This document shows, piece by piece, positions 4,622-21,994 of a DNA stretch of 58,407 nt. The stretch's first letter is position 1, and each line of letters begins with the position of its first letter. A program made the translations under genes and the position numbers. This DNA comes from a bacterium. Lineage in GTDB: Bacteria; Patescibacteriota; Dojkabacteria; JAKAPS01; JAJZLI01. The stretch spans positions 1-58,407 of the forward strand of contig DAIDGT010000005.1 of the NCBI GenBank assembly GCA_027459825.1, given 5' to 3'. The notes beneath the pieces are model-generated. The model was given only the letters and a program-made list of their open reading frames with translations. It was not told the DNA's origin and did not search any database.

Positions 4622-7417
4622 ATGTATACTCTAAACGAATCTCAAATTAAAGCTCGTGATAATATAGAAGGACCTCTTATTGTTTCTGCGGGTCCTGGTA
4701 CAGGAAAAACATTTTTAGTAATTGAGAAAATTAAATATCTTATAAAAAAGGGGATAAAAGAGAATGAGATATTAGCTATAACGTTTTCCAGAAAGGCTGC
4801 AGAAGAAATTAAAGATAGATTATCTGATTCATTAGGTTTTTTTCATAATGTACAAATATTTACATTCCATTCTTTTGCAGAAAATGTCATTCGTAAATAC
4901 CATACTAATTTAAATCTTCGTGAAGATTTTGTTCTAATGGACAAGATGCAATCAACTGTCTTTTTAGAAGATCATATATTTGATTTTGAATTAAATCTTT
5001 TGCGACCTGTATCTAATCCATACAAAGAAGTGGATAAATTGTTAAATTTATTTTCTAAATTAGCTGACAATTTTATTTCTCCTGAAGAAATAGAAAAGAA
5101 AGAATTTAAAAGTGAAGAAGAGCGAGAATGTGCCTATTTATATGCAAAGTACTTTGACTTAAAAATACAAGAGAATAAATTGGAATTTAATGATTTAATC
5201 TTTCTATGTTTAAAACTTTTTAATAAAAATAATGATGTTTTAAAAGAAATAAAAAATTCATATAAATATATACTGGTTGATGAATTTCAAGATACAAATC
5301 ATATTCAAAATTTACTTATAAATAAAATTGTGAATAAGGATAATAATATTACTATTGTAGGGGATATAAATCAAAGTATATATAATTTTAGGGGGGCAAA
5401 TTTAAATAATATAAATGAGTTTAAAAAAAGCTTCTCTAATTACAAGGAAATTAATTTAGATACAAATTATAGATCACATCAGGAAATAGTTGATAGTGCA
5501 TATAAAATTATTAATGGTAGTCCTTTGAAATCAATTAAGGGAAATGGTGGAGAGATAATGGATGTTTTTAGGTTTAGTACAGGAGATAAGGAGCTTAATT
5601 TTATTGCTTCTCAAATACTTAAGTTAAAGGATACAGATAAAAGAGAATTCAAAGATTTTGCAATTTTGACTAGATCAAATGCCTTAGCCTCAGAAGTGTC
5701 ATTAATTTTACAAAAGTATAACATCCCTTTTGAATTTAGGGGATCAGATAGTTTTTCTAATTCTGCAGAAGTGAAAGATTTGATAGCTATGATTAAGTTT
5801 TTTGAAGATAAAAATAATGACATCTCTTTATTAAAAGTTATGGGTTTTGAAGTTTTTGGTATAGATATACTTTCTAGATATTTAATTTCAAAAATATCTA
5901 AAATTTTAAAAATTTCAATATTTGAGACCTTAAAATTCATTGTTGGTGAATATGATGCGTTATATGATACTGTAGGTGTTGATTTTATGATTGGACATGG
6001 TGATTATGTGAATACTGTTTATGATATAAAGTCTTTTGTCAATGAATGTAAATCTTCCAATATAAAGACTCTTTATGATTTATTGAGTAAATATATAGTG
6101 TCTGTGGATGGTGTTTCTTTTTCTAATAAAATTTTGGAATTTTTGAATGAAATCAAATACTTTGAGTATGTCCATTCTTTACCTGATGGTACTTTTATCC
6201 GTAGCAATGTAGATAAATTTATGTCTATAATTCAAAAACTAGAGGATATTCAAATAACTAAATTTTCTAGATATTTAGACCATATAGATAAAGTTTCTTT
6301 TGAAGATGATGTTGATGTGCTATCAAGTTTGAATGCAGTTACCCTTTCGACTGTACATGGTGTGAAGGGTATGGAATTTTCTATTGTTTTTATGCCTTTC
6401 TTGACATCAGACAGATTTCCTTCTAGGCGGTTATCGGCATCACAGGAATTATTCAATGATATAGGTGTTGATACTGTGAATGGCAATGGTATTGATGAAG
6501 AAAAAAGGTTATTTTTTGTTGGTATTACTCGTTCAAAAGAAAGAATTTTTTTAACCTATTCTGATTTTTATGAAAATAATAAAAAACAAAAAAATATAAG
6601 TCCCTTTATCTTAGATCTTGGTTTAAAAGAAAAGGATTCTACTTTCGGCGACAAAGATGCTTCTCATATTTATAATCAAGTATCTTTTAATTATTTTATT
6701 CCTAAAGATTATTCTAAATTTTATTATAGTTACAGTAAAATAGTTTCTTTTAAAAAATGTCCATTGCACTATTATTATGAATATGTTTTAAATTTCCCTA
6801 AAAAACAGTCCTATGCTCTTGAGTATGGAACTTTAATTCATAATACAATAAATCAATTTTTTAGAATGAAAAATTTTGAAGATGTTGATTTGCTAAATTC
6901 AATTTATCTTAAAAATTGGGAAAGTATAAATTCCTCTGTGTTTAAAAATTCTAATCATGCAGAAATATTTAAACAGTATGGTATTCAGAATTTAAAAAGT
7001 CATATTGATATGATGATCCCAAAATCCAAATATTCTTACAATGAAATGAATTTTAGATTTAAGTTTAAAAATAAATATACTATAAATGGCAGGATAGATA
7101 GAATTGATTTTTTTGATGACGGGAGTATATCTATTGTGGATTATAAAACTGGTAGCTCTAAAAACCAAGACTCTATTTTAAATAATTTGCAACTATATAT
7201 ATATGCATTAGCAGCTAAAGATAAGTATAAGAGGGATATAAAAGATCTTAGTTTAATTTTTGTTGATGAAGGAAATGTTGTGAAAAGTAGTTATAATGAT
7301 CTTGATCTTGAAAAAGTAGAGAAAGAACTGATAGAATTGATGACTAAGATGGATAATATACAAAACACAATTTCAAAAACATTTTGGTGTGGAAATTGTG
7401 ATTATAATATTTTATGA
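4622..7417 (+). CDS. UvrD/AddA-type superfamily 1 helicase with C-terminal PD-(D/E)XK nuclease
   Basis: A 931-residue SF1A DNA helicase fused to a nuclease, as in AddA/RecB-like recombination enzymes. Helicase motifs: Walker A GPGTGKT at about 23-30, motif II VDEFQDT at about 219-225, motif III QSIYNFRGA, motif V HGVKGMEF at about 580, motif VI GITRSKER at about 633. The nuclease domain has YGTLIH at about 735, then VDYKTG at about 839 and a following QLYIYAL helix. Cysteines in KKCP and FWCGNC flank it as in iron-sulfur AddB-type nucleases, but the expected last cysteine is missing because the protein stops there. The start at 4622 follows from the promoter position. The stop overlaps the next start (ATGA at 7414). 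Confidence 0.9.
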   Translation: MYTLNESQIKARDNIEGPLIVSAGPGTGKTFLVIEKIKYLIKKGIKENEILAITFSRKAAEEIKDRLSDSLGFFHNVQIFTFHSFAENVIRKYHTNLNLREDFVLMDKMQSTVFLEDHIFDFELNLLRPVSNPYKEVDKLLNLFSKLADNFISPEEIEKKEFKSEEERECAYLYAKYFDLKIQENKLEFNDLIFLCLKLFNKNNDVLKEIKNSYKYILVDEFQDTNHIQNLLINKIVNKDNNITIVGDINQSIYNFRGANLNNINEFKKSFSNYKEINLDTNYRSHQEIVDSAYKIINGSPLKSIKGNGGEIMDVFRFSTGDKELNFIASQILKLKDTDKREFKDFAILTRSNALASEVSLILQKYNIPFEFRGSDSFSNSAEVKDLIAMIKFFEDKNNDISLLKVMGFEVFGIDILSRYLISKISKILKISIFETLKFIVGEYDALYDTVGVDFMIGHGDYVNTVYDIKSFVNECKSSNIKTLYDLLSKYIVSVDGVSFSNKILEFLNEIKYFEYVHSLPDGTFIRSNVDKFMSIIQKLEDIQITKFSRYLDHIDKVSFEDDVDVLSSLNAVTLSTVHGVKGMEFSIVFMPFLTSDRFPSRRLSASQELFNDIGVDTVNGNGIDEEKRLFFVGITRSKERIFLTYSDFYENNKKQKNISPFILDLGLKEKDSTFGDKDASHIYNQVSFNYFIPKDYSKFYYSYSKIVSFKKCPLHYYYEYVLNFPKKQSYALEYGTLIHNTINQFFRMKNFEDVDLLNSIYLKNWESINSSVFKNSNHAEIFKQYGIQNLKSHIDMMIPKSKYSYNEMNFRFKFKNKYTINGRIDRIDFFDDGSISIVDYKTGSSKNQDSILNNLQLYIYALAAKDKYKRDIKDLSLIFVDEGNVVKSSYNDLDLEKVEKELIELMTKMDNIQNTISKTFWCGNCDYNIL

Positions 7418-8253
7418 GAAATATAAAAAGAAAAGTTATTTCACGCATATTCTTTGTTTCTATTTTATTATTTTCCTTTGTGTTTCTTTCTACTCGTGTA
7501 CTTGCAGATAATGTTAGTTACAGTAATAATGTATTTCAAGGGGTTACATGTGGTAATTTAGAATCCTATATTAGTAATCTTGTAGAACTTGTAGGATATA
7601 CACCTGTTGGACAAAATGGAACTTTGCCTAATACTAGTACTAAGGTAAAAAATATTCAAATAAAGGATGAAAGTAAATATCTACTGTTGCTCAGTTTTAA
7701 TATTTCCAGTAGTAATGTTTTTTCCGATTGTAATACAGTATTCAGTACTAGTCCCGTACTTCCTGTTATTCCTCCTACTATTTATTATGCTTTTTCGAGT
7801 GGTACAAATGGTTCCTCAACTTTTAAACTTTATTATGATACCTCTCTGAGATATTTTTATAATTATCAGCAGGCTTGTGGGCAAGGATCTTCTGCTGTTG
7901 GAACAACTTCCTATAATAATTGTATAAATTGTATACAGCAAAATAGTGCTCAAGATCAGTCTAATGGAGTATATAAATATGTATATACTGATTTTGGTTG
8001 TGTAGATACTTCAACTTCAGGTATTATACGATTTATATACCAATTAATGGTTATTATTGGGGCAATTATTTCATTCATTTCTATGCTTGTTGGTGGTTAT
8101 ATGTTTATGACATCAGGTGGTGATTCTGATAAAGTGCAGAAGGCAAAAACTGTTTTAACTAATGCAATTATAGGTTTACTTGTTATAATATTTGCTGTTG
8201 TAATATTAGGAACTATTGGAACTATTTTTGGAATATCTGTGATATCATTTTAG
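7414..8253 (+). CDS. TrbC/VirB2-like membrane protein with large ectodomain (array member 1)
   Basis: A 279-residue protein with an N-terminal signal peptide (basic start, hydrophobic core, ending about residue 32 at VLADN), a roughly 170-residue Ser/Asn/Cys-rich exported region, and a C-terminal module of two membrane helices (about 204-230 and 250-275). Between the helices is MTSGGDSDKVQKAK followed by LTNAIIG, the hallmark shared by all six proteins in this array. The module resembles TrbC/VirB2 pilin subunits of type IV secretion systems. The ectodomain carries several cysteines (for example NNCINC) that could form disulfides outside the cell. It overlaps the helicase gene by 4 bases. The exact role is inferred from family shape only. 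Confidence 0.75.
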   Translation: MRNIKRKVISRIFFVSILLFSFVFLSTRVLADNVSYSNNVFQGVTCGNLESYISNLVELVGYTPVGQNGTLPNTSTKVKNIQIKDESKYLLLLSFNISSSNVFSDCNTVFSTSPVLPVIPPTIYYAFSSGTNGSSTFKLYYDTSLRYFYNYQQACGQGSSAVGTTSYNNCINCIQQNSAQDQSNGVYKYVYTDFGCVDTSTSGIIRFIYQLMVIIGAIISFISMLVGGYMFMTSGGDSDKVQKAKTVLTNAIIGLLVIIFAVVILGTIGTIFGISVISF

Positions 8254-8254
8254 T

Positions 8255-8572
8255 ATGATTACATTGGCAAGTACTACAACATGTTCTTCTACTGCTACTA
8301 GTTGTGATATTTCTTCTCCTTTTAAATTTAGTCTTCCAACATTAGCAAATCAAATATTTAATATTTTTTACTTTGTTGTTGGATTAGTTTTTATAGTATT
8401 AATTGTTATTTCTGGTATAAAAATTATAACTGCGGGAGGAAGTAAAGAAGCTGTAGATGAGGCTAAAAAAACTTTAACTTCTAGTATAATAGGTATTATT
8501 ATTGTAATTCTTGCAGGAATTATAGTTCGATTGTTAGGTAGTGTTATTCCAGGTTTTAGTGGTCTTATATAA
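8255..8572 (+). CDS. TrbC/VirB2-like small membrane protein (array member 2)
   Basis: A 105-residue protein that starts one base after the previous stop. It has a short Ser/Thr/Cys-rich N-terminus without a classical signal peptide, then two membrane helices (about 38-60 and 80-100) joined by ITAGGSKEAVDEAKKTL and SSIIG, matching the array hallmark. The size and two-helix hairpin are those of a minimal VirB2/TrbC pilin. Function in a filament or conduit is inference from this resemblance and from the neighbouring paralogues. Confidence 0.72.
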   Translation: MITLASTTTCSSTATSCDISSPFKFSLPTLANQIFNIFYFVVGLVFIVLIVISGIKIITAGGSKEAVDEAKKTLTSSIIGIIIVILAGIIVRLLGSVIPGFSGLI

Positions 8573-8576
8573 AGAT

Positions 8577-9257
8577 ATGATTTTATACAAATATATTAAA
8601 TACAAATTTGTGATTTTAGTTTCAGTTTTATCTATTTTAGGATTTTTTGTTATTAATATGTTCGGTGTTATCTATGCTAGTTCTGTTACTATTTCTTGTC
8701 AAGATATGGGGAATGCTATTAGTACATACAGTGGTTCATCTAATATAACTTTTGATACCATAAGTGCATCTGAAGTATCTTCTGCTCCATCAGGTACTAC
8801 TTCTTCAATGTCATTTGATTATTCTAATGGGGTTGTATCGAATTGTTCTCCTGTTTCTTTGAATGCTGATACTACAGGTCAGTTTGTATACACTATCTCT
8901 CCTGTTCCTAGTTCTAGTGCTCAATATGTGACACTTTATTATACTGCCTCATCAACTTCTGCTAATTCTGGTAGTCAATATTCTCCTACTACTATTAGTA
9001 ATTTAGAACCTGTATCTAAATATAATAATAACTTTGTATCTTACACTTTAAATAAGGTTGTTTTCCCTATTTTATATGGCGTACTTGGTTTTATCGTTTT
9101 AGGTCTTGTATCATATGCAGGATTTTTATGGATGACATCTAAGGGTGACCCTAAAAGTATTGATAAGGCAAAATCTGTATTGACCGGTGCTATTATCGGT
9201 GCTATTATTATAATGTTGGCATACATTATAAGTTTGTTGTTAGTATCAAATATATGA
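8577..9257 (+). CDS. TrbC/VirB2-like membrane protein with Ser/Thr-rich ectodomain (array member 3)
   Basis: A 226-residue protein. The ATG at 8577 is preferred because it lies 4 bases after the upstream stop and begins the signal peptide; an earlier in-frame start would lie inside the previous gene. After the signal peptide (about residues 1-35) comes a 130-residue Ser/Thr/Tyr-rich exported segment, then the two-helix module with LWMTSKGDPKSIDKAK and LTGAIIG. It shares the long-ectodomain layout of member 1, but the ectodomains are not obviously related. The stop overlaps the next start by 4 bases. Confidence 0.72.
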   Translation: MILYKYIKYKFVILVSVLSILGFFVINMFGVIYASSVTISCQDMGNAISTYSGSSNITFDTISASEVSSAPSGTTSSMSFDYSNGVVSNCSPVSLNADTTGQFVYTISPVPSSSAQYVTLYYTASSTSANSGSQYSPTTISNLEPVSKYNNNFVSYTLNKVVFPILYGVLGFIVLGLVSYAGFLWMTSKGDPKSIDKAKSVLTGAIIGAIIIMLAYIISLLLVSNI

Positions 9258-9724
9258 AGTATTATAAATTTTTTATTTTTTCAGTTATCATTCCTTTGTT
9301 TATTTTTACCATAGTGTTTATTGTGCATCCTTTTGTTTATGCTGCAAATGATCCGTGTTCTGCGTTAGGAGGAACTTTAGGCTCAAATGGAGTATGTAAT
9401 TTTTCATTGAATCCACCTATTCCAACTAATTGTTCTACTATTAATAGTACCATTTCTACTATTATTGATGTGCTATTTGCTGTTGCTGGGCTTTTGTTTT
9501 TTGTTATGATTGTTGTGTCTGGTATTGAATGGCTAATGTCTGGTGGGGAGGAAGAGAAGAAACGTAATGCTCAGAGTCGTTTAATTAATGCTGTAATAGG
9601 TATTGCAATTGTTGCGGGGTCATTTTTTATATTTGAGATAATATTGAATTTATTTGGAGTTGGGGGTGCATCTGTTTTCTCAAACCCAATTGTGAAAACA
9701 AGTGGTACCTGTCAATTACAATAG
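9254..9724 (+). CDS. TrbC/VirB2-like pilin (array member 4)
   Basis: A 156-residue protein with a clear signal peptide (about residues 1-31, VYAAND), a short exported segment with three cysteines, and the two-helix module containing IEWLMSGGEEEKKRNAQ and LINAVIGIAIV. Among the six paralogues it is closest to member 6, sharing SGGEEE and RLINAVIGIAIVA, so these two are recent duplicates or a functional pair. It starts inside the last codons of member 3, consistent with translational coupling. Confidence 0.75.
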   Translation: MKYYKFFIFSVIIPLFIFTIVFIVHPFVYAANDPCSALGGTLGSNGVCNFSLNPPIPTNCSTINSTISTIIDVLFAVAGLLFFVMIVVSGIEWLMSGGEEEKKRNAQSRLINAVIGIAIVAGSFFIFEIILNLFGVGGASVFSNPIVKTSGTCQLQ

Positions 9725-9735
9725 TTTAAAAATTT

Positions 9736-10065
9736 ATGAATAATACAAGTCCTGCCCATTTAACTTCTTTAGTATCTGTAGTTTTTATAATAGTTGGACT
9801 TTTGTATTCCTTGGTTGGTCTTGTTTTGTTTATTATGATTCTTGTGAATGGTTTTAAGTATTTATTTAGTGGTGTAAATCCCGAATTAAAAGAGCAAGCA
9901 AATAAAGGTCTAACTTTTGCAGTAATTGGTTTTGTTATAATTGTTCTTGCTTATGTAATAATTATTTTTATAGGTAATTTGATACCTAGCCTTTATATTG
10001 TTTCTTTTGTAAATGGTTCAACACTGCATTTTTCATTGAGTAATATCGGTGGGGGAGGTTCTTAG
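9736..10065 (+). CDS. TrbC/VirB2-like small membrane protein (array member 5)
   Basis: A 109-residue protein without a signal peptide, with two membrane helices and the connecting segment FKYLFSGVNPELKEQANKG. The hallmark glycine pair is reduced to SGV, the most divergent version in the array. It ends in a Gly-rich tail (GGGGS). It is 11 bases after member 4 and is followed by a gap holding the separate promoter of member 6. Confidence 0.68.
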   Translation: MNNTSPAHLTSLVSVVFIIVGLLYSLVGLVLFIMILVNGFKYLFSGVNPELKEQANKGLTFAVIGFVIIVLAYVIIIFIGNLIPSLYIVSFVNGSTLHFSLSNIGGGGS

Positions 10066-10091
10066 TTTAACAAGTATTTTATTCTTTTATA

Positions 10092-10120
10092 TAGACATAT
10101 TGCTTATTTTTTGATAAAAT
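10092..10120 (+). promoter_or_regulatory. Promoter of array member 6
   Basis: TAGACA at 10092-10097, a 17-base spacer and TAAAAT at 10115-10120, with TGA forming an extended -10. This gives the last pilin-like gene its own transcription start inside the array. Confidence 0.65.
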
Positions 10121-10135
10121 AGTAGGCTTTATCTG

Positions 10136-10144
10136 AGGAGGTGG
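10136..10144 (+). promoter_or_regulatory. Strong ribosome binding site of array member 6
   Basis: GAGGAGGTG pairs with the CACCTCC 3' end of the 16S rRNA in this window and sits 5 bases before the ATG at 10150. It decides the start against the GTG at 10141, which lies within the binding site. Confidence 0.8.
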
Positions 10145-10149
10145 AAAAT

Positions 10150-10593
10150 ATGAAACATACAATATTAAAGATTATGGGAGTGCTAGTTACTCTTGTATCT
10201 GTTTTTGGATTTTCACTTCCAGCATTTGCTGCAAATAATTGTCCTTATTATTTAACATCAGGCAGTGGAAACACTGTTTGTAATAGTAACTTAGCAACTA
10301 ATCCAAATAGTCTTATTACGACTGTTATAAATGTATTATTTGCTGTTGTCGGGTTAATATTCTTCATAATGATTGTTATTGCTGGAATTCAGTGGGTAAC
10401 ATCTGGTGGAGAAGAAGAAGGCAAAAAGGCTGCTCAAGGTAGACTTATAAATGCAGTAATAGGCATTGCAATTGTTGCAGCTGCATATCTAGTTGTTGAA
10501 TTAGTATCAAGCTTATTAGGTATAGGAAGTATATTTAATAGTAAGATAGTAACTTGTAGCGGAGGGACATGTACATTAGCTCCATCGAGTTAA
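10150..10593 (+). CDS. TrbC/VirB2-like pilin, probable major subunit (array member 6)
   Basis: A 147-residue protein: signal peptide (about 1-27, AFAANN), a short exported segment with two cysteines, then the two-helix module with IQWVTSGGEEEGKKAAQ and LINAVIGIAIVA, and a short Cys-containing tail. It alone in the array has a near-consensus promoter and a full-length Shine-Dalgarno sequence, so it should be the most abundant member, as expected of the main structural pilin. That role is inference. Its transcript ends at the strong hairpin at 10631-10657. Confidence 0.77.
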   Translation: MKHTILKIMGVLVTLVSVFGFSLPAFAANNCPYYLTSGSGNTVCNSNLATNPNSLITTVINVLFAVVGLIFFIMIVIAGIQWVTSGGEEEGKKAAQGRLINAVIGIAIVAAAYLVVELVSSLLGIGSIFNSKIVTCSGGTCTLAPSS

Positions 10594-10630
10594 TGGTAAA
10601 TTGTCATATGTCAGTAATATTATATATATT

Positions 10631-10657
10631 AAAAAAGGGGATTAACTCCCCTTTTTT
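10631..10657. terminator. Bidirectional terminator between the pilin array and hsp20
   Basis: An 11-bp perfect stem, AAAAAAGGGGA (10631-10641) with TCCCCTTTTTT (10647-10657), loop TTAAC. The A-run on one side and T-run on the other let it end transcripts from both convergent genes. Confidence 0.93.
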
Positions 10658-10674
10658 GTTTATATATGAGTTGA

Positions 10675-11079
10675 TTAGTTTATTTGAATTGCTTTTGGTT
10701 TAGCTTCTTCTGCCTTTGGAAGTGTTAATGTTAATATTCCATCTTTGAAAGAAGCTTTTGCATCTGCACTCTTCACTGAAGAAGGTAGAGTTACTGATCT
10801 CGCTAGTGATTGTTCTCTAATTTCTTTTTTATAATATTTTTTACTTTTTCCTTTTTCTTCTTTCTCTTCTTTCTTTTCAGCTTTGATTGTAAGGTTATCT
10901 CCTACAACTGTAATATTCAAATCTTCTTTTGCAAAACCAGGAGCTTTCATTTTTACTACAACATTATCATCTTCTTCATATAAATCTAGTGCACCATCCT
11001 CTGTATGGAAAAACATTTCTGTCTCATCTTCATCAACCCATCTTGGAAAAATCCAAGGATTCCATCTTGTTATTGCCAT
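10675..11079 (-). CDS. hsp20: Small heat-shock protein (Hsp20/alpha-crystallin family)
   Basis: A 134-residue holdase chaperone. The alpha-crystallin domain fills residues 35-130, with VVVKMKAPGFAKEDLNITV, an Arg/Lys-rich turn, and the terminal strand pattern ASFKDGILTLTLPK. The C-terminus keeps an I-x-I-type anchor (AIQIN). The start at 11079 (MAITRWNP) is set by an AAGGAGGTGAG ribosome binding site just upstream; a GTG within that site would be too early. Convergent with the pilin array and divergent from the sbcD-like gene, whose promoter region it shares. Confidence 0.93.
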   Translation of the reverse strand: MAITRWNPWIFPRWVDEDETEMFFHTEDGALDLYEEDDNVVVKMKAPGFAKEDLNITVVGDNLTIKAEKKEEKEEKGKSKKYYKKEIREQSLARSVTLPSSVKSADAKASFKDGILTLTLPKAEEAKPKAIQIN

Positions 11080-11123
11080 AAAACTCACCTCCTTATTATC
11101 AGATCATTACTGACTCTGCTAAT

Positions 11124-14366: not shown

Positions 14367-16517
14367 ATGTCTCAAAATAAGATTTTTATTCAAATATTGA
14401 CAGTAGTCTTCCTTTTATTTGTTGGTATTGTAAATGGAAGAGTTATCTCTTCTGTATCTGCTCAGTCAGTACAGGATATTCAAAATAGTATTAATGCACT
14501 ACAATCTCAGAATCAACAGCTTGAATCTCAAATAAATAACCTTGATGCAAGGAAAAGTAGTGATATGAATTCCTTGGTATCTATAAATTCTCTAATATCT
14601 CAAGAAGGGAATACTTTAAATGCAATTAAGTTATTACTATCTAGTCTTGGATCTTCTTTGGGTGATTATAAATCCTTTTTAAATAATTTGGAGGATAAAA
14701 GAAATCAGGCTTTTAAGTTACTATATATAAATACCCAAGAAAATCCTTTTGAATTATTTCTATCTTCTTCTGAATTTTCTACATTTGCTGTAAGTTGGGG
14801 AGAGAATCAATCTTTACTTAATAGTATTAAAAAGAAGATAATTACTACAAATTCAGAAATAGTTACCATTAATAATGAGTTATCTTTTCAAAAATCACAA
14901 AGTTTAAAATTACAGAATGACCTTGCTTACTATAATGCTCAAGTAGGTAGTATAAGTAACGATATTGCATTTACTAATAGTAGTCTTAGTAATATTGCAG
15001 GATTACAACAAGGGATTGCTCAAAAAATTGCTCAACTCCAACAAGAAAAACTTGCTGCAAGTAGTGTGAACTCTTCGCCTACACCTCAAACCACAACTGT
15101 AAAGTCAGTTTCTCAAGTGCAATCACAAGTTAGTGATTCTAATACAAATGTTTCTTCTAGTAGTTCTTCATCTCCTTATATAGTATCTGATAATTGTAAT
15201 TCTTCTTGTGGAAACTTTTCTGTATCTGTAGGTGGTCAGTCTTTTAATAATGTTTCTGGTCCAATCGATATCAATCCTCAAAATATCGGATCTCCAATGT
15301 CAGTAAACAATATCTCGTATTTAGGTGCAGATGAAATTAGGGCAGATACAAATTCTCAATTTATTAATATTTTACCTTTGGAGGATTATTTGCAGGGAAT
15401 AGGTGAGATGTCTGCTAGTTGGCAGCCTAATGCGTTAGAATCTCAAGTTATAGCAGCGAGGACATATGCTTTGTATCATATGGGAGAATTTTCTAGTGAA
15501 AATTATGATTTACAAAATGGTACAGTGGATCAAAGTTATGTAGGGTATTCTAAAAATGAGGAATGTATCAAGAGTAATTATTGTAATTGGGAAGATGCCG
15601 TATCCAGTACCAATGGTGATATTTTAACTTATAATGGAGGAATTATTGATAGTGTATATGCTGCGTCGAATGGAGGATATAACTTATCAGACTCTGAGGT
15701 TTGGGGTGGTAGTGCTCCATATTTACAGTCAGGGGAGGATAGTTCTAGTACTGAAAATTATAATTCTGTGTGTAATGGTACAGAGGATTTTAATTATGCT
15801 TGGTTTAATAATGTAACACTAACGCCTAGTCAGATTGCAATTATAATAAATGATACCAATTACTTTGAAAATAGTACTGATTCTACTGCTATAAAATTAG
15901 CAAATTTATCTAATGCTTGGTGGAATGCCCCTGCTGCCTATGATATTGCATCGTCTTCAAATATTTCTAGTCTTAGTACTGATGTTAGTAGCACTGGTCC
16001 CGTTGCCTCAGAAAATACAACGGTTGTATTTACTAATCAAAGTGGAACTACTTATTCATTAGATGCACAAGATTTTGCATTTGTATATAATACAGTTACT
16101 CCATATGGGTACTATATTCAAATTCCATCATTGAATTACACAATAGGTCAGAGTACTAATAATAAATCAGAACTAACAGTTAATAATTATTTCGCTCTTT
16201 ATACAATTACTGGGAATACTACTAATGGTTTCCAAATAAACTCTCTTGCAAATGGTTTTAGGCTTGGTCTTAGTCAGTGTGGTGCAGAAGGAAGAGCTTT
16301 GGATGGACAAAATTATACTCAGATTTTGTCTGCGTATTACCCGGGTACATCAATTTCTAATTATCAGAGTTCAGTTGTAAATATTAGGGTTGGAATTATG
16401 GGAGGATCTATTTCTAGCTATAATATTACTCCTACATCAGGTTTTAGTATTTATGCAAATGGAACCAAGATATATTCAAGTAATAATTCTCAGCAAGTAG
16501 TAATTAACCAATTGTGA
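14367..16517 (+). CDS. Secreted coiled-coil protein with SpoIID/LytB domain (peptidoglycan processing)
   Basis: A 716-residue exported protein. Signal peptide at about 1-33 (SVSAQS). A coiled coil (about 35-130 and 165-235) resembles PcsB/CwlO-type hydrolase regulators. A Ser/Thr/Gln-rich linker follows, then a SpoIID-like domain from about residue 300: LEDYLQGIGEMSASW, SQVIAARTYALYHM, and the later GLSQCGAEGRA and YYPGT motifs. SpoIID enzymes are lytic transglycosylases acting on denuded glycan, and Glu in GIGEMSASW matches the catalytic position. The gene starts 6 bases after the YhaN-like gene. It probably trims cell wall, perhaps to let an envelope-spanning machine through; that last step is inference. 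Confidence 0.85.
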   Translation: MSQNKIFIQILTVVFLLFVGIVNGRVISSVSAQSVQDIQNSINALQSQNQQLESQINNLDARKSSDMNSLVSINSLISQEGNTLNAIKLLLSSLGSSLGDYKSFLNNLEDKRNQAFKLLYINTQENPFELFLSSSEFSTFAVSWGENQSLLNSIKKKIITTNSEIVTINNELSFQKSQSLKLQNDLAYYNAQVGSISNDIAFTNSSLSNIAGLQQGIAQKIAQLQQEKLAASSVNSSPTPQTTTVKSVSQVQSQVSDSNTNVSSSSSSSPYIVSDNCNSSCGNFSVSVGGQSFNNVSGPIDINPQNIGSPMSVNNISYLGADEIRADTNSQFINILPLEDYLQGIGEMSASWQPNALESQVIAARTYALYHMGEFSSENYDLQNGTVDQSYVGYSKNEECIKSNYCNWEDAVSSTNGDILTYNGGIIDSVYAASNGGYNLSDSEVWGGSAPYLQSGEDSSSTENYNSVCNGTEDFNYAWFNNVTLTPSQIAIIINDTNYFENSTDSTAIKLANLSNAWWNAPAAYDIASSSNISSLSTDVSSTGPVASENTTVVFTNQSGTTYSLDAQDFAFVYNTVTPYGYYIQIPSLNYTIGQSTNNKSELTVNNYFALYTITGNTTNGFQINSLANGFRLGLSQCGAEGRALDGQNYTQILSAYYPGTSISNYQSSVVNIRVGIMGGSISSYNITPTSGFSIYANGTKIYSSNNSQQVVINQL

Positions 16518-16605: not shown

Positions 16606-17682
16606 ATGGGTAGGTTAGATATACATCCAAAAAGTTATATAGATAAAAATGTAGATAAGAATATCTTTTCTCATGTTTATTTACATCTCCCTCAAGATGA
16701 AAATTTAATAGAATTTAGAGGGAAACTTTTCTCTGCAGTTGATGTTTCTGGTCCGATAGAATTTGATGCTAATAAGTATTTGGATTCATTTTTAGATGAT
16801 TTAGAGTCTACATATTTTACGAATACAGTCTCAAGTGTTATAAATGTATTGGATTCTTCTCTTAACTTTGCTTACAATAATCTACAAAAATCAATAATTG
16901 ACGCAAATATTGAAGGTGATATTGATTTTAATGTTACCTGTTTTGTTGTATGGGGTGATGTTGGGTACATGGCAAGAATTGGGACATCTTTAATTTTGCT
17001 TTTTAGGGATGGTAAGTTGATGAATCTTTCTGACCACTTACTTACATCTGGTAATAATATTGTTGCTACTGCTAGTGGGTTTTTAAAGAATAATGATAAT
17101 TTCATATTAGCAACTCCACATTGTTCGTTATACATAGATGAATCCAGATGGAAAAGTATTCTTAGTCTGGATCAAAAGCAGCTAGGTAAATTAGAGGTTG
17201 GATCAAAAAGAGGAGATGTCAGTTTTATTATTTTAGATGTTTTTGACACAAATCAGGAAGTAGATGACGCTGTTTTAAAATCAGAATCATTTAATAATAA
17301 AGATATTCATGAGCATATAAACGAAAATGTAATACAAAATAATGTTATTGCTGATAAAATTAAGGAATTTGATTTTGGTAATAAATTTGGTGATTTTTCT
17401 AAAAAAGTTGTATCTGGTGTTCATAAAGGCTCTTCAAATGCTATCTACTCTTTTTGGAATTATCTGAAAAAAGTTCAATGGAAGTTAATATTAAAATCTA
17501 TTTTTGTCGTTTTGTATTCTTTTGTGAGTCTTGTATATAATGCAATTATGTATGTTATAAATAAAAACAAATCTAGGGAATATAAAAGTAATATAGGAAA
17601 AGATTTCAGTGTTTTTCGTAAAGAAAAATATACTGTTTTAGGTATAATTATCTTTATACTTATAATAATATTTTTTTTTTAA
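16606..17682 (+). CDS. PP2C-like (probable pseudophosphatase) domain plus transmembrane helix; N-terminal part of a frameshifted gene
   Basis: 358 residues. The N-terminal 220 residues have the strand pattern of a PPM/PP2C phosphatase fold, including GDVGYMARIGTSLILLFRDGKL and the later FLKNNDNFILATP, but the metal-binding Asp motifs (DGxG, DN) are not found, so catalysis is doubtful. A linker, a basic stretch and a terminal membrane helix follow (GIIIFILIII). The frame ends at a TAA directly after ten consecutive T (17671-17680). One extra T would join it to the next frame, giving a single 715-residue protein with cytoplasmic PP2C-like, transmembrane and external propeller-like parts. Programmed slippage and sequence error are both possible. 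Confidence 0.72.
   Translation: MGRLDIHPKSYIDKNVDKNIFSHVYLHLPQDENLIEFRGKLFSAVDVSGPIEFDANKYLDSFLDDLESTYFTNTVSSVINVLDSSLNFAYNNLQKSIIDANIEGDIDFNVTCFVVWGDVGYMARIGTSLILLFRDGKLMNLSDHLLTSGNNIVATASGFLKNNDNFILATPHCSLYIDESRWKSILSLDQKQLGKLEVGSKRGDVSFIILDVFDTNQEVDDAVLKSESFNNKDIHEHINENVIQNNVIADKIKEFDFGNKFGDFSKKVVSGVHKGSSNAIYSFWNYLKKVQWKLILKSIFVVLYSFVSLVYNAIMYVINKNKSREYKSNIGKDFSVFRKEKYTVLGIIIFILIIIFFF
17671..17680 (+). other. T10 homopolymer at the frame break
   Basis: Ten T residues within the transmembrane codons. The upstream frame stops at once after them, and the downstream frame is open from here to 18752, so slippage by one nucleotide at this site restores one continuous gene. Confidence 0.8.
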
Positions 17683-18752
17683 GTAAAGCTCATTTTGTTC
17701 AGAAAAATAATATAAATTTTGAAAAATCAAAATTTCAGAGCATAAAATCCCAACTATCTTCAGACTTATCTGAGCTTAATGGTACTAAATCAATCTCTTT
17801 TAAAGATTCTATTATAAATAAGGATGAATCTTTAATTTCAGAGGCATTGTCACTAAATATTAATAATTCCGAAATAGAAAATTTAAAAAGACAGATATAT
17901 AATATATATTATACAATAAATGATATTACCCCTATGAGTAATGTTCAAATACTGTCTGATGTCTCAATATTTTATCCCGGGGCAAATATTTCTTCAATTC
18001 TTAATGTGGGAGAAAGTATCTATATAACATCTCCATCTTCTCAGTATGTATTTTCATTTTCAAATTCAAGTTCTTCTAATCCTTCAATATTTGAGTCTCT
18101 TAAGAGTGGAATTTCAATTCCTCAGTACCTAACATACTCCGTTACTGATTCTTCAATGTTTTTGTATGATGTAAATAATGGTCTTTATAAAGTGAACGCT
18201 TCTGGTAGCTTACAAAACTTAACAAATCCTATTGCTTCAGTGAAGTATATTCAATCTTTTCTTGGAAATATCTATATGCTTGATCCTTCTTCAGGGGTTA
18301 TGTATGTAGCAAACAAAAATAATGGATATAAAGTTTCTAAAGATTTCACCTCTCCAATTTTGAAAGGATCAAAATCTTTTGCAGTAGATGGAAATATTTT
18401 TGTAGTAGATTCTTCTGGTAGTATAGAAAGGTTTTATGCAAATCAACCAACTCCATTTAATATAACTAACCAGGAGGCTATGGAATACCCTTTAGGAGAA
18501 GTGTCATATATATATGATAATATGTATACAAATGATATTTTTATTGTTGATCCTTCACATGAGCGTGTTGTAGTTCTTCAGAAACCAGCGATTAATGCGA
18601 CTGATACAATTGATTATAAATTTGTAAAACAGTATGTATATCTTGGAAGTGATAGTAAAATTTTTTCTCATATAGATTATATAGATATCTCTTCAGATGG
18701 TAGTAGTTTGTACCTTGTTTCTGGTACTAAGATTATAAAGGTAAGTGTATGA
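17682..18752 (+). CDS. Propeller-like extracellular domain; C-terminal part of the frameshifted gene
   Basis: The frame is open from the T10 run to 18752 (about 356 codons) and has no strong start of its own; TTG 17847 and ATG 17935 are the first internal candidates. The first 90 residues are polar and helical, and the rest shows repeated short beta segments of the type YVFSFS, MFLYDVNNGLYKV, IYMLDPSSGVMYV, IFVVDSSGSIERF and IFIVDPSHERVVV, as in YVTN/NHL-like beta-propellers. It is most likely the outside domain of the protein begun at 16606. The last codon overlaps the smpB start (ATGA at 18749). Confidence 0.7.
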   Translation, partial: SKAHFVQKNNINFEKSKFQSIKSQLSSDLSELNGTKSISFKDSIINKDESLISEALSLNINNSEIENLKRQIYNIYYTINDITPMSNVQILSDVSIFYPGANISSILNVGESIYITSPSSQYVFSFSNSSSSNPSIFESLKSGISIPQYLTYSVTDSSMFLYDVNNGLYKVNASGSLQNLTNPIASVKYIQSFLGNIYMLDPSSGVMYVANKNNGYKVSKDFTSPILKGSKSFAVDGNIFVVDSSGSIERFYANQPTPFNITNQEAMEYPLGEVSYIYDNMYTNDIFIVDPSHERVVVLQKPAINATDTIDYKFVKQYVYLGSDSKIFSHIDYIDISSDGSSLYLVSGTKIIKVSV

Positions 18753-19564: not shown

Positions 19565-21994
19565 ATGTACTTACATCCTGTTAATATTTCAAATATAAAT
19601 TTAAATTTTTCTATTGTAGGAAAAGTGTTTATTGATCTAGGGCTTATTCTTTTGGTACTTGCTTTCATTTTCATAGTAGCAAGTATAGTTTTATTCTTTG
19701 TGTTTAGAGAAATTAAAATTTCCAATTTCATAAAAAATAAAAAACAGTCTGTAACTTTTGAGGTTACAATCCCTATGGACAATGAGATTGAAATTTCAGC
19801 TGCGGATCAAATGTTTTCCAGTTTGTCTGGTATCAAAGGTGGATCATTTATCGAAAAATTAATGGGAAATCTTCAATTTTTTTCCATTGAAATTATGGCA
19901 ACTGCAGAAGTTATTGATTTTTATGTTACATGTAATGAGGACTTTGCAGACCTAGTAGAAAAGCAGATTCATGCAGCATATCCTGTTGCAGAAGTTTTGC
20001 GTACAGAAAAAACTGATATTTTTAAAAATCCTGGATATGTTGAATTTGCTCAGCTTGGATTTTCAAAGAAATCATATTTTCCGATTAAAGTCCATTCTGA
20101 AGAAATGAAAGTCGATACACTATCGAATATCACCAGTGTAGTAAGTAGATTAAACTCTGGTGAATATGCTGCTTTTCAGATCATTTTATCTCCTGCTTCC
20201 GATGTTTGGGTTAAAAAAGCTAATAATTTTACTAAACCATCTTCCCCGAAAAAGGACGAAGCCCCGAAGTCTCTCAGTAGTACAAAGGAATATATTAATA
20301 AGAAGATTGAGGAAAAAACACAAAAAGTTGGTTTTGATGCAACTATAAGACTTGTTGTGGTTAGTGGAGATAAAGCAAGAGCAAAATCTATTTTAGATAA
20401 TATGGTACAAAGTTTTTCTCAATTTAATGACCCATACCTTAATAAATTAAAAAAGGTAAATTTGAAATCTTTTCAGAAAAAAGATTTTGCAACGGGATTT
20501 CTTTTAGATTCTCCCGATTTGTTTGGTTGGATGTTTGGAAAAGCATTAGTATTGAATACCATGGAACTTGCTAGCTTATATCACTTTCCTAATAAAAATG
20601 TTCAAACTCCTCATATAAAATGGTTAATGGCTAAAAAAGCGCCTGTTCCAAGTGGAGTCCCTTTTGAAGGACTTTTTCTTGGTAATGGTATATATCGAGG
20701 AAATGTTAGACCTGTGTATATTGCTGATGATGATAGGAGAAGGCATATGTATATAGTAGGAAGGACAGGTACAGGTAAATCTACATTATTGGAATCCTTG
20801 GTTTTACAAGATATTAAGGAGGGGAAAGGTGTTGCTTTTCTTGATCCTCATGGACAATCAGCAAAAAATATACTAGAAAGGATTCCTGCTTCTAGAGCTG
20901 AAGATGTTATTTATTTTAATGCAGCTGATTTTGAAAGGCCATTGGGGCTTAATATAATGGAGTATTATTCAGAACAGGATAAACACTTAATTGTTAACTC
21001 TTTTTATCATATGCTTGAAAAAATGTTTGATCCTAATAGGCAAGGAATTACTGGTCCTAGGCTTGAGAGAGCAGTAAGAAATTGTATGTTAACTGCAATG
21101 TCTAGACCAGGTAATACTCTTATTGAGGTTTTAAGGTTAGTACTTTTGGATAAGAATTTTATTGATGAGATGTTGCCACACATTAAAGATGATATGGTAA
21201 GAAAGTATTGGACAGAAGAGATAGCTCAAACTACTGATTACCACAAATCTGAAACATTGGGATACTTTGCTTCCAAATTTGATAGATTTGTAATTAATCA
21301 ATTAATGAGAAATATTCTGGGTCAGAGTAAATCTTCATTTAGTATGAGAGATGTGATGGATAACCAGAAAATTTTAATAGTAGATCTTGATAAGGGACAA
21401 ATTGGAGAAGAAAATTCTCAATTTCTAGGATTACTATTAGTGCCAAAAATATTATCAGCTGCAATGTCTCGGTCCGATATCCCAGAATCCGAGCGTAAAG
21501 ATTTTTATCTTTATGTAGATGAATTTCAGAATTTTGCAACTGAAGATTTTGCACAAATTTTATCTGAAGCACGAAAGTATAAATTGAATTTAACAGTTGC
21601 TAATCAGTATATTGCTCAGATGACTGAAGAAGTGAAAAATGCTGTTTTTGGAAATGTTGGAACTTTGATAAGTTTTAAAGTTGGTGTATCAGATGCAGAA
21701 TTTTTAGAGAAGGAATTCGAACCTGTATTTAATCAAAAGGACTTGATTAACCTAGAAAATAGGAATACTTATGTTAAAACTATATCAAAAGGAGAAGTTC
21801 AACAACCATTTTCAATGCAAACAGTAATGACCGATATGCCATCAGATACTGAGGTATGTAATGCAATTATTAGACTTTCTAGGTTGAAATATGGAAAAGA
21901 TGTGAATGATGTTGAATCTGAAATAAAGTCCAGGGGAGAGATAAAGAATACAGCAAGGCCTGCTCAGTATGGAGATACTCTAGTTCAGAAGTAA
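19565..21994 (+). CDS. VirD4/TraG/HerA-like type IV secretion ATPase
   Basis: An 809-residue membrane-anchored ATPase. One membrane helix at about 20-44 is followed by a conserved N-terminal domain (about 55-350) and a RecA-like motor: Walker A GRTGTGKST at about 398-406, LDPHGQSAKN, Walker B ILIVDLDKG, and YVDEFQNFATED at about 650, ending in a Gln-finger-type AANQYIAQM segment. This order matches coupling proteins that feed DNA or protein into a type IV channel, and HerA-like translocases. Together with the TrbC/VirB2-like array 9 kb upstream it suggests a reduced type IV apparatus, although no VirB4, VirB6 or relaxase gene is seen here. Confidence 0.85.
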   Translation: MYLHPVNISNINLNFSIVGKVFIDLGLILLVLAFIFIVASIVLFFVFREIKISNFIKNKKQSVTFEVTIPMDNEIEISAADQMFSSLSGIKGGSFIEKLMGNLQFFSIEIMATAEVIDFYVTCNEDFADLVEKQIHAAYPVAEVLRTEKTDIFKNPGYVEFAQLGFSKKSYFPIKVHSEEMKVDTLSNITSVVSRLNSGEYAAFQIILSPASDVWVKKANNFTKPSSPKKDEAPKSLSSTKEYINKKIEEKTQKVGFDATIRLVVVSGDKARAKSILDNMVQSFSQFNDPYLNKLKKVNLKSFQKKDFATGFLLDSPDLFGWMFGKALVLNTMELASLYHFPNKNVQTPHIKWLMAKKAPVPSGVPFEGLFLGNGIYRGNVRPVYIADDDRRRHMYIVGRTGTGKSTLLESLVLQDIKEGKGVAFLDPHGQSAKNILERIPASRAEDVIYFNAADFERPLGLNIMEYYSEQDKHLIVNSFYHMLEKMFDPNRQGITGPRLERAVRNCMLTAMSRPGNTLIEVLRLVLLDKNFIDEMLPHIKDDMVRKYWTEEIAQTTDYHKSETLGYFASKFDRFVINQLMRNILGQSKSSFSMRDVMDNQKILIVDLDKGQIGEENSQFLGLLLVPKILSAAMSRSDIPESERKDFYLYVDEFQNFATEDFAQILSEARKYKLNLTVANQYIAQMTEEVKNAVFGNVGTLISFKVGVSDAEFLEKEFEPVFNQKDLINLENRNTYVKTISKGEVQQPFSMQTVMTDMPSDTEVCNAIIRLSRLKYGKDVNDVESEIKSRGEIKNTARPAQYGDTLVQK

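Follow-up and report, generated by a model that had tools for sequence, protein, structure and literature searches.

Type IV secretion systems (T4SSs) of Patescibacteria are essential to epibiotic growth in the sole species tested, and their VirB2-like pilin genes commonly occur in arrays. In a recent survey, 383 Patescibacteria assemblies yielded 441 arrays, each with 2-11 VirB2-like genes that average 25% identity; drawing a parallel with Bartonella and Anaplasma, its authors suggested a role in antigenic variation or in adaptation to the host (Quinonero-Coronel et al. 2025, PMC12102498). A pilin was found near virB4 in 1,135 of the 1,948 assemblies having pilin and VirB4; coupling proteins were rarely near virB4 and their partner was left open (PMC12102498). 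In Southlakia epibionticum, the pilin series is essential and lies within the T4SS cluster (Wang et al. 2023, PMC10633639); a 2025 review counts six pilins in this species and speculates on a pilus (PMC12857230). T4SSs of monoderms are generally without pili (PMC12102498, PMC12857230). Here we analyse an array of six predicted pilin genes in a 58,407-nucleotide stretch of a Dojkabacteria genome (GenBank assembly GCA_027459825.1, contig DAIDGT010000005.1, forward strand), called the window below. An original prediction made from this DNA had assumed that VirB2/TrbC pilins usually occur as one gene per system, which is outdated for Patescibacteria given the multi-gene arrays published (PMC12102498, PMC10633639). 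The array type itself is thus already known; new here are the fixed positions of its genes (slots), a Shine-Dalgarno (SD) sequence confined to slot 6 and the linkage to a coupling ATPase.

Six consecutive genes encode one helical hairpin

Six consecutive open reading frames (ORFs) occupy positions 7414-10593 on the + strand (Table 1), where the original prediction had put six genes sharing a two-helix module, and the hairpin is found in each product. Hydropathy of the six members indicates that they have in common a helical hairpin, some 70 residues long, whose short turn is charged. Each member separately clears the gathering cut-off of PF18895 (T4SS_pilin, 26.6 bits), with scores of 26.8-52.7 bits, and the shared module is therefore not due to chance. 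The TrbC/VirB2-like identity proposed earlier stands through this family and not through PF04956 (TrbC/VirB2) itself, whose cut-off of 27.9 bits is reached by no member: the sole array match, member 2, stays sub-threshold at 17.2 bits. Of the family's array proteins, 50 were compared: all matched PF18895, and nine matched PF04956 at E <= 0.01. All six members are below the cut-off of 40 of NCBIfam NF045849 (Mbov_0395 pilin of an integrative and conjugative element, ICE), the best score being 33.7 bits for member 5. Taken together, sequence profiles support the array products as VirB2-superfamily pilins. In the AlphaFold model of member 6, helices span residues 52-84 and 89-122 with a predicted local distance difference test score (pLDDT) near 80. 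Start codons ATG 8577 (slot 3) and ATG 10150 (slot 6) were preferred over GTG 8541 and GTG 10141 of the listed ORFs.

The members differ in their exported parts as had been predicted: these are large in members 1 (six Cys) and 3 (two Cys), and members 2 and 5 are bare. Judged from hydropathy only, members 1, 3, 4 and 6 carry a hydrophobic signal-like N-terminal segment and members 2 and 5 carry none. The model of the member 1 ectodomain, with a mean pLDDT of 53, is too weak for interpretation. A common module in the ectodomains of slots 1 and 3 was considered and rejected, profile comparison giving 2.7 bits versus 4.6 in shuffled controls.

Table 1. Features of the pilin array and of its linked neighbours in the window
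Feature	Coordinates	Strand	Description	Evidence
Slot 1	7414..8253	+	T4SS_pilin, signal-like N-terminus, large Cys-containing ectodomain, YTDFGC before first helix	PF18895 32.1 bits
Slot 2	8255..8572	+	Bare T4SS_pilin	PF18895 52.7 bits; PF04956 17.2 bits; orthologues
Slot 3	8577..9257	+	T4SS_pilin, signal-like N-terminus, Ser/Thr-rich ectodomain of variable length	PF18895 26.8 bits
Slot 4	9254..9724	+	T4SS_pilin, small exported part, 4 Cys	PF18895 40.2 bits; orthologues
Slot 5	9736..10065	+	Bare, Cys-free T4SS_pilin, YLFSGVNPELK turn	PF18895 39.7 bits; orthologues
Promoter-like site	10092..10120	+	5' of slot 6: TAGACA, 17 nt, TAAAAT	10/12 consensus positions
Full SD	10135..10143	+	SD of slot 6, GAGGAGGTG	-15.9 kcal/mol
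Slot 6	10150..10593	+	Probable major T4SS_pilin	PF18895 39.3 bits; AlphaFold hairpin
Terminator-like hairpin	10630..10658	+	Intrinsic-terminator-like, 3' of array	
SpoIID-domain protein	14367..16517	+	N-terminal coiled coil	PF08486 65.2 bits; array neighbour across class
Coupling ATPase	19565..21994	+	VirD4/TrwB-like	PF10412 29.6 bits; PF12696 26.4 bits

The six positions are orthologous slots

We compared the array across the family in eight genomes, from five genera; several of these arrays are interrupted by contig ends. As the original prediction had proposed to examine, synteny is kept in relatives, for both gene order and flanks. Gene order is constant, and so are the relative lengths (long, short, long or variable, medium, short, medium); the last position is duplicated in four of the eight genomes. 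The array lies downstream of MurJ, GroES, GroEL and UvrD and upstream of Hsp20, Mre11, SbcC and SpoIID. A tree of 53 cores sorts by slot: the slot label changes 6 times (minimum 5) and the genome label 43 times. The best match was in the same slot for 333 of 350 core comparisons. Core identity averages 56-69% for the same slot across genomes (congener pair excluded) versus 32% for different slots within a genome. On the core tree, slot 4 of the source genus is nearer slot 6. Slots also have features of their own. In slot 1, C155, C170, C173 and the YTDFGC motif are invariant in seven relatives; slot 3 lacks its ectodomain in three genera or species, yet its core is more conserved than that of any other slot. 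A second family of the class has its own slot-like set.

Selection on members 2-6 was measured between the source genome and a congener as the ratio of nonsynonymous to synonymous substitution rates (dN/dS, omega). Whole-gene values of 0.07-0.21, comparable to those of Mre11 and SbcC, correspond to purifying selection. By region, members 3 and 6 have omega values of 0.24 and 0.45 in their exported parts and of 0.07 and 0.06 in their cores; the highest value, 0.45, is that of the N-terminal part of member 6, and none exceeds 1 in the genes and regions tested. By these sequence comparisons, each position of the array is an orthologous slot that stays fixed across the family, ancient and conserved in its own right. 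Slot orthology combined with low dN/dS points to distinct, constrained roles and speaks against a shuffled repertoire.

Members 4 and 6, initially described as close copies, share more identity than any other pair, 62% across the core and 43% in their N-terminal parts. The resemblance is not recent, however: their longest exact DNA match is only 14 nt, and recent gene conversion or copying between them was rejected. Their divergence is that of old paralogues occupying different slots. In one relative, slots 1 and 3 contain a stretch of identical sequence; this was also discarded, as an assembly effect: L065:1-125 recurs at 1161 inside slot 3, a 125-nt contig-end overlap, and the start of the slot 1 gene there is not real sequence.

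A strong translation signal is confined to slot 6

Member 6 is predicted to pair with the 16S tail at a duplex energy of -15.9 kcal/mol, the other five at -7.7 kcal/mol or weaker, in agreement with the earlier claim that a full SD precedes this member alone. Only one of the 33 other window genes has a comparable SD. This is the Hsp20 gene (10675-11088, - strand), which adjoins the array and has a full SD of -16.7 kcal/mol; strong SDs are rare in the source genome. The full SD is restricted to slot 6 in seven of the eight family genomes, and the slot-6 homologue has a strong SD in both sister-family genomes. More distant genomes of the class have no slot with an SD of this strength, and the mark thus seems specific to the order. 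Since the full SD is found on slot 6 alone, it marks this slot as the likely major subunit.

The near-consensus promoter claimed for this gene exists as a site, but such sites occur at chance level in this AT-rich region (23 found versus 22.1 expected). The candidate carries weight because the gap before the slot-6 gene, with its -10-like box, recurs in relatives, not because of its scan score.

The array is linked to a coupling ATPase

The ATPase at 19565, which the original prediction tentatively assigned to the same machine, clears the cut-offs of TrwB_AAD_bind (29.6 versus 20.5 bits) and TraG-D_C (26.4 versus 22 bits). Homologues, mostly full length, are present in 57 of 58 class genomes. 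Its association with the array is conserved: among the 39 class genomes having both on one contig, the distance between the ATPase and a T4SS_pilin gene is <=15 kb in 33 and <=30 kb in 38. Random gene placement would give a few per cent, in a comparison that assumes independence for genomes that are related. This linkage suggests that the partner of the coupling ATPase is the pilin array, with a reservation concerning SmpB that is weighed below.

The SpoIID-domain protein usually lies between array and ATPase in class genomes. SpoIID of Bacillus cleaves peptidoglycan, so the protein here could stand in for the missing VirB1; from its position, our guess is a wall-opening enzyme. Across the class, SmpB and usually SpoIID keep the array and ATPase company; Mre11, SbcC and Hsp20 often do not. 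Four genomes lack both the array and SpoIID, but this was discarded as independent support: SmpB is affected too, which corresponds to loss of a whole segment or to divergence beyond detection. Two further genes between array and ATPase (16606-17682 and 17847-18752, + strand) have no Pfam match and are retained in many class genomes.

A second VirD4-like ATPase, intact and of 800 amino acids, is encoded on contig C4 of the same genome (L086:2238-4640), between two secreted proteins (L086:1433-2152 and 4734-5504). The latter share a C-terminal stretch, IPANDGWMEFQVPN..., and might be partners or substrates.

The core T4SS locus has its own pilin

The source genome combines a core T4SS locus having one short pilin with the separate six-gene array. 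This seventh pilin, of 87 amino acids, is on contig C1 between two VirB4-type ATPases. Scoring 30.2 bits with PF18895 and 29.4 bits with PF04956, it clears either cut-off, and so does its counterpart in genome G005; it therefore bridges the two families. A polytopic membrane protein beside it, with no Pfam match, is taken for VirB6 from position and hydropathy. The PrgI-like protein of the cluster (L039:15979-17484, - strand) is just under its cut-off (26.8 versus 27 bits); beyond its PrgI-like N-terminus it has a long disordered region and a carboxypeptidase-regulatory-like domain. Two genes inside the core locus on the opposite strand (L039:11522-13212, +) resemble, by eye, an AbiEi/AbiEii-type toxin-antitoxin pair.

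Searches for a PF03432 relaxase and for a ComEC-type protein were negative in the source genome, five other family genomes and two sister-family genomes. This speaks against classical conjugation by that class of relaxase and is compatible with DNA import or protein traffic. The ComEC-type competence protein, not found in G000-G005, G008 and G009, is present in most control genomes.

A model for the array and its alternatives

Our favoured reading, at somewhat better than even chances, is that the array encodes a VirB2-type surface appendage belonging to a Patescibacteria T4SS and heteromeric in make-up: one subunit would be major and several others minor, each with a dedicated role. Its bearer is a tiny, probably host-dependent bacterium. 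Following the positive-inside rule, each product would be membrane-inserted as a hairpin whose charged turn is cytoplasmic and whose ends are both outside. Slot 6 would be made in bulk and form the body of a fibre or channel sleeve. The products of slots 1-5 would be scarcer and each be held in its own slot for its own place, those of slots 1 and 3 displaying their ectodomains at the tip, the base or the point of contact with the host cell. The VirD4-like ATPase would act as substrate receptor and the SpoIID-type enzyme as wall opener of the same machine, which would work with the VirB4/PrgI core encoded elsewhere. Cargo may be DNA or protein, and a contact function alone would also be compatible with such an appendage. 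A stricter form, which we consider doubtful, would have six VirB2-type paralogues that are all obligate, cannot replace one another and take defined places; together with their own coupling ATPase and wall-opening enzyme, they would form a module separate from a VirB4 core that retains a canonical pilin of its own.

Several observations weigh against the appendage. VirB4 is on a separate contig from the array here and 26-440 kb distant in the class genomes where this is measurable, and its locus has its own pilin. PDB profile searches and Foldseek with the monomer gave no significant pilin match. The slot-6 mark has exceptions: in G006 the last array gene is without a strong SD, and in a farther family, more distant in the class, no slot has one. 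SmpB, a housekeeping gene, belongs to the linked block although no functional tie is obvious, and some of the linkage may accordingly reflect old synteny. The core tree has only 65 columns and, the cores being short, many weak forks, which is why slots were assigned from gene order and slot-specific motifs as well as from the tree. Of the one major and five minor filament subunits originally predicted, the probable major one is indicated by its SD; that the products assemble into a filament with minor subunits is our inference.

Of the alternatives, the best surviving, although unlikely, is that five of the six are envelope-embedded adaptors or channel-lining T4SS proteins forming a membrane ring or sleeve, with no extracellular pilus, as in monoderms. 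The general absence of pili from monoderm T4SSs (PMC12102498, PMC12857230), the VirB2-like pilin already present in the core locus and the lack of an exported part and of a signal-like segment in slots 2 and 5 all fit such adaptors. They accord less with a pilin fold family common to all six and with the high-expression mark of slot 6, and the essential S. epibionticum array was also read as pilins (PMC10633639).

Somewhat less likely still is a repertoire of interchangeable variants of one subunit, serving antigenic variation or host-range adaptation as proposed for Bartonella Trw and Anaplasma. It has been suggested in print for Patescibacteria arrays (PMC12102498) and would account for the variable or missing slot 3 ectodomain, for the faster evolution of members 3 and 6 outside their cores, in the exported parts, and for the doubling of slot 6 in four genomes. 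Such variants are difficult to reconcile with slots that are orthologous and collinear over five genera, with omega never above 1, with the absence of recent conversion even in the closest pair and with a strong SD on one slot alone. An unrelated two-helix membrane family, pilin-like by hydrophobicity only and no part of a T4SS, is improbable: hydrophobic hairpins match easily and the PDB sequence and fold searches were negative, but all six members clear a curated PF18895 cut-off, nine of 50 family proteins match PF04956, whose cut-off the core-locus homologues clear, and the array is linked to the coupling ATPase.

Fixed slots, the strong slot-6 SD and the link to an otherwise orphan coupling ATPase turn the appendage reading into a specific, testable model, with candidates for the major subunit, for contact subunits and for a VirB1 substitute.

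Comparison with known systems

With six tandem genes and 32% core identity, the array agrees with the published description of Patescibacteria arrays (2-11 tandem, low-identity pilins) but not with their location near virB4 (PMC12102498). It shares with these arrays, including that of S. epibionticum ML1, tandem PF18895 pilins of low mutual identity, a T4SS association and a size of about six genes. In ML1, however, the array is inside the VirB4 cluster, where no coupling protein is recognised, whereas here it lies away from VirB4, beside the VirD4-like ATPase and the SpoIID protein. Slot orthology, the SD on slot 6 only and the large slot 1 and 3 ectodomains are described here in addition.

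Like the TrbC/VirB2 conjugative pilins (PF04956; T-pilus, F-pilus), the members are two-helix hairpins, most of them with a signal-like N-terminal segment, and have T4SS partners; unlike them, they score sub-threshold with PF04956, are six paralogues instead of one, carry large ectodomains in some cases and are accompanied by no PF03432 relaxase that we could find. The Mycoplasma ICE pilin-like protein Mbov_0395 (NF045849) is likewise a short two-helix T4SS protein of a one-membrane cell, but it is the single gene of a mobile element, and the array falls below its cut-off. Bartonella Trw and Anaplasma VirB2 also have several sequence-variable VirB2 copies per T4SS. Those are read as variants with one role, whereas the slots described here are of ancient origin, keep a collinear order, differ from one another and evolve under purifying selection.

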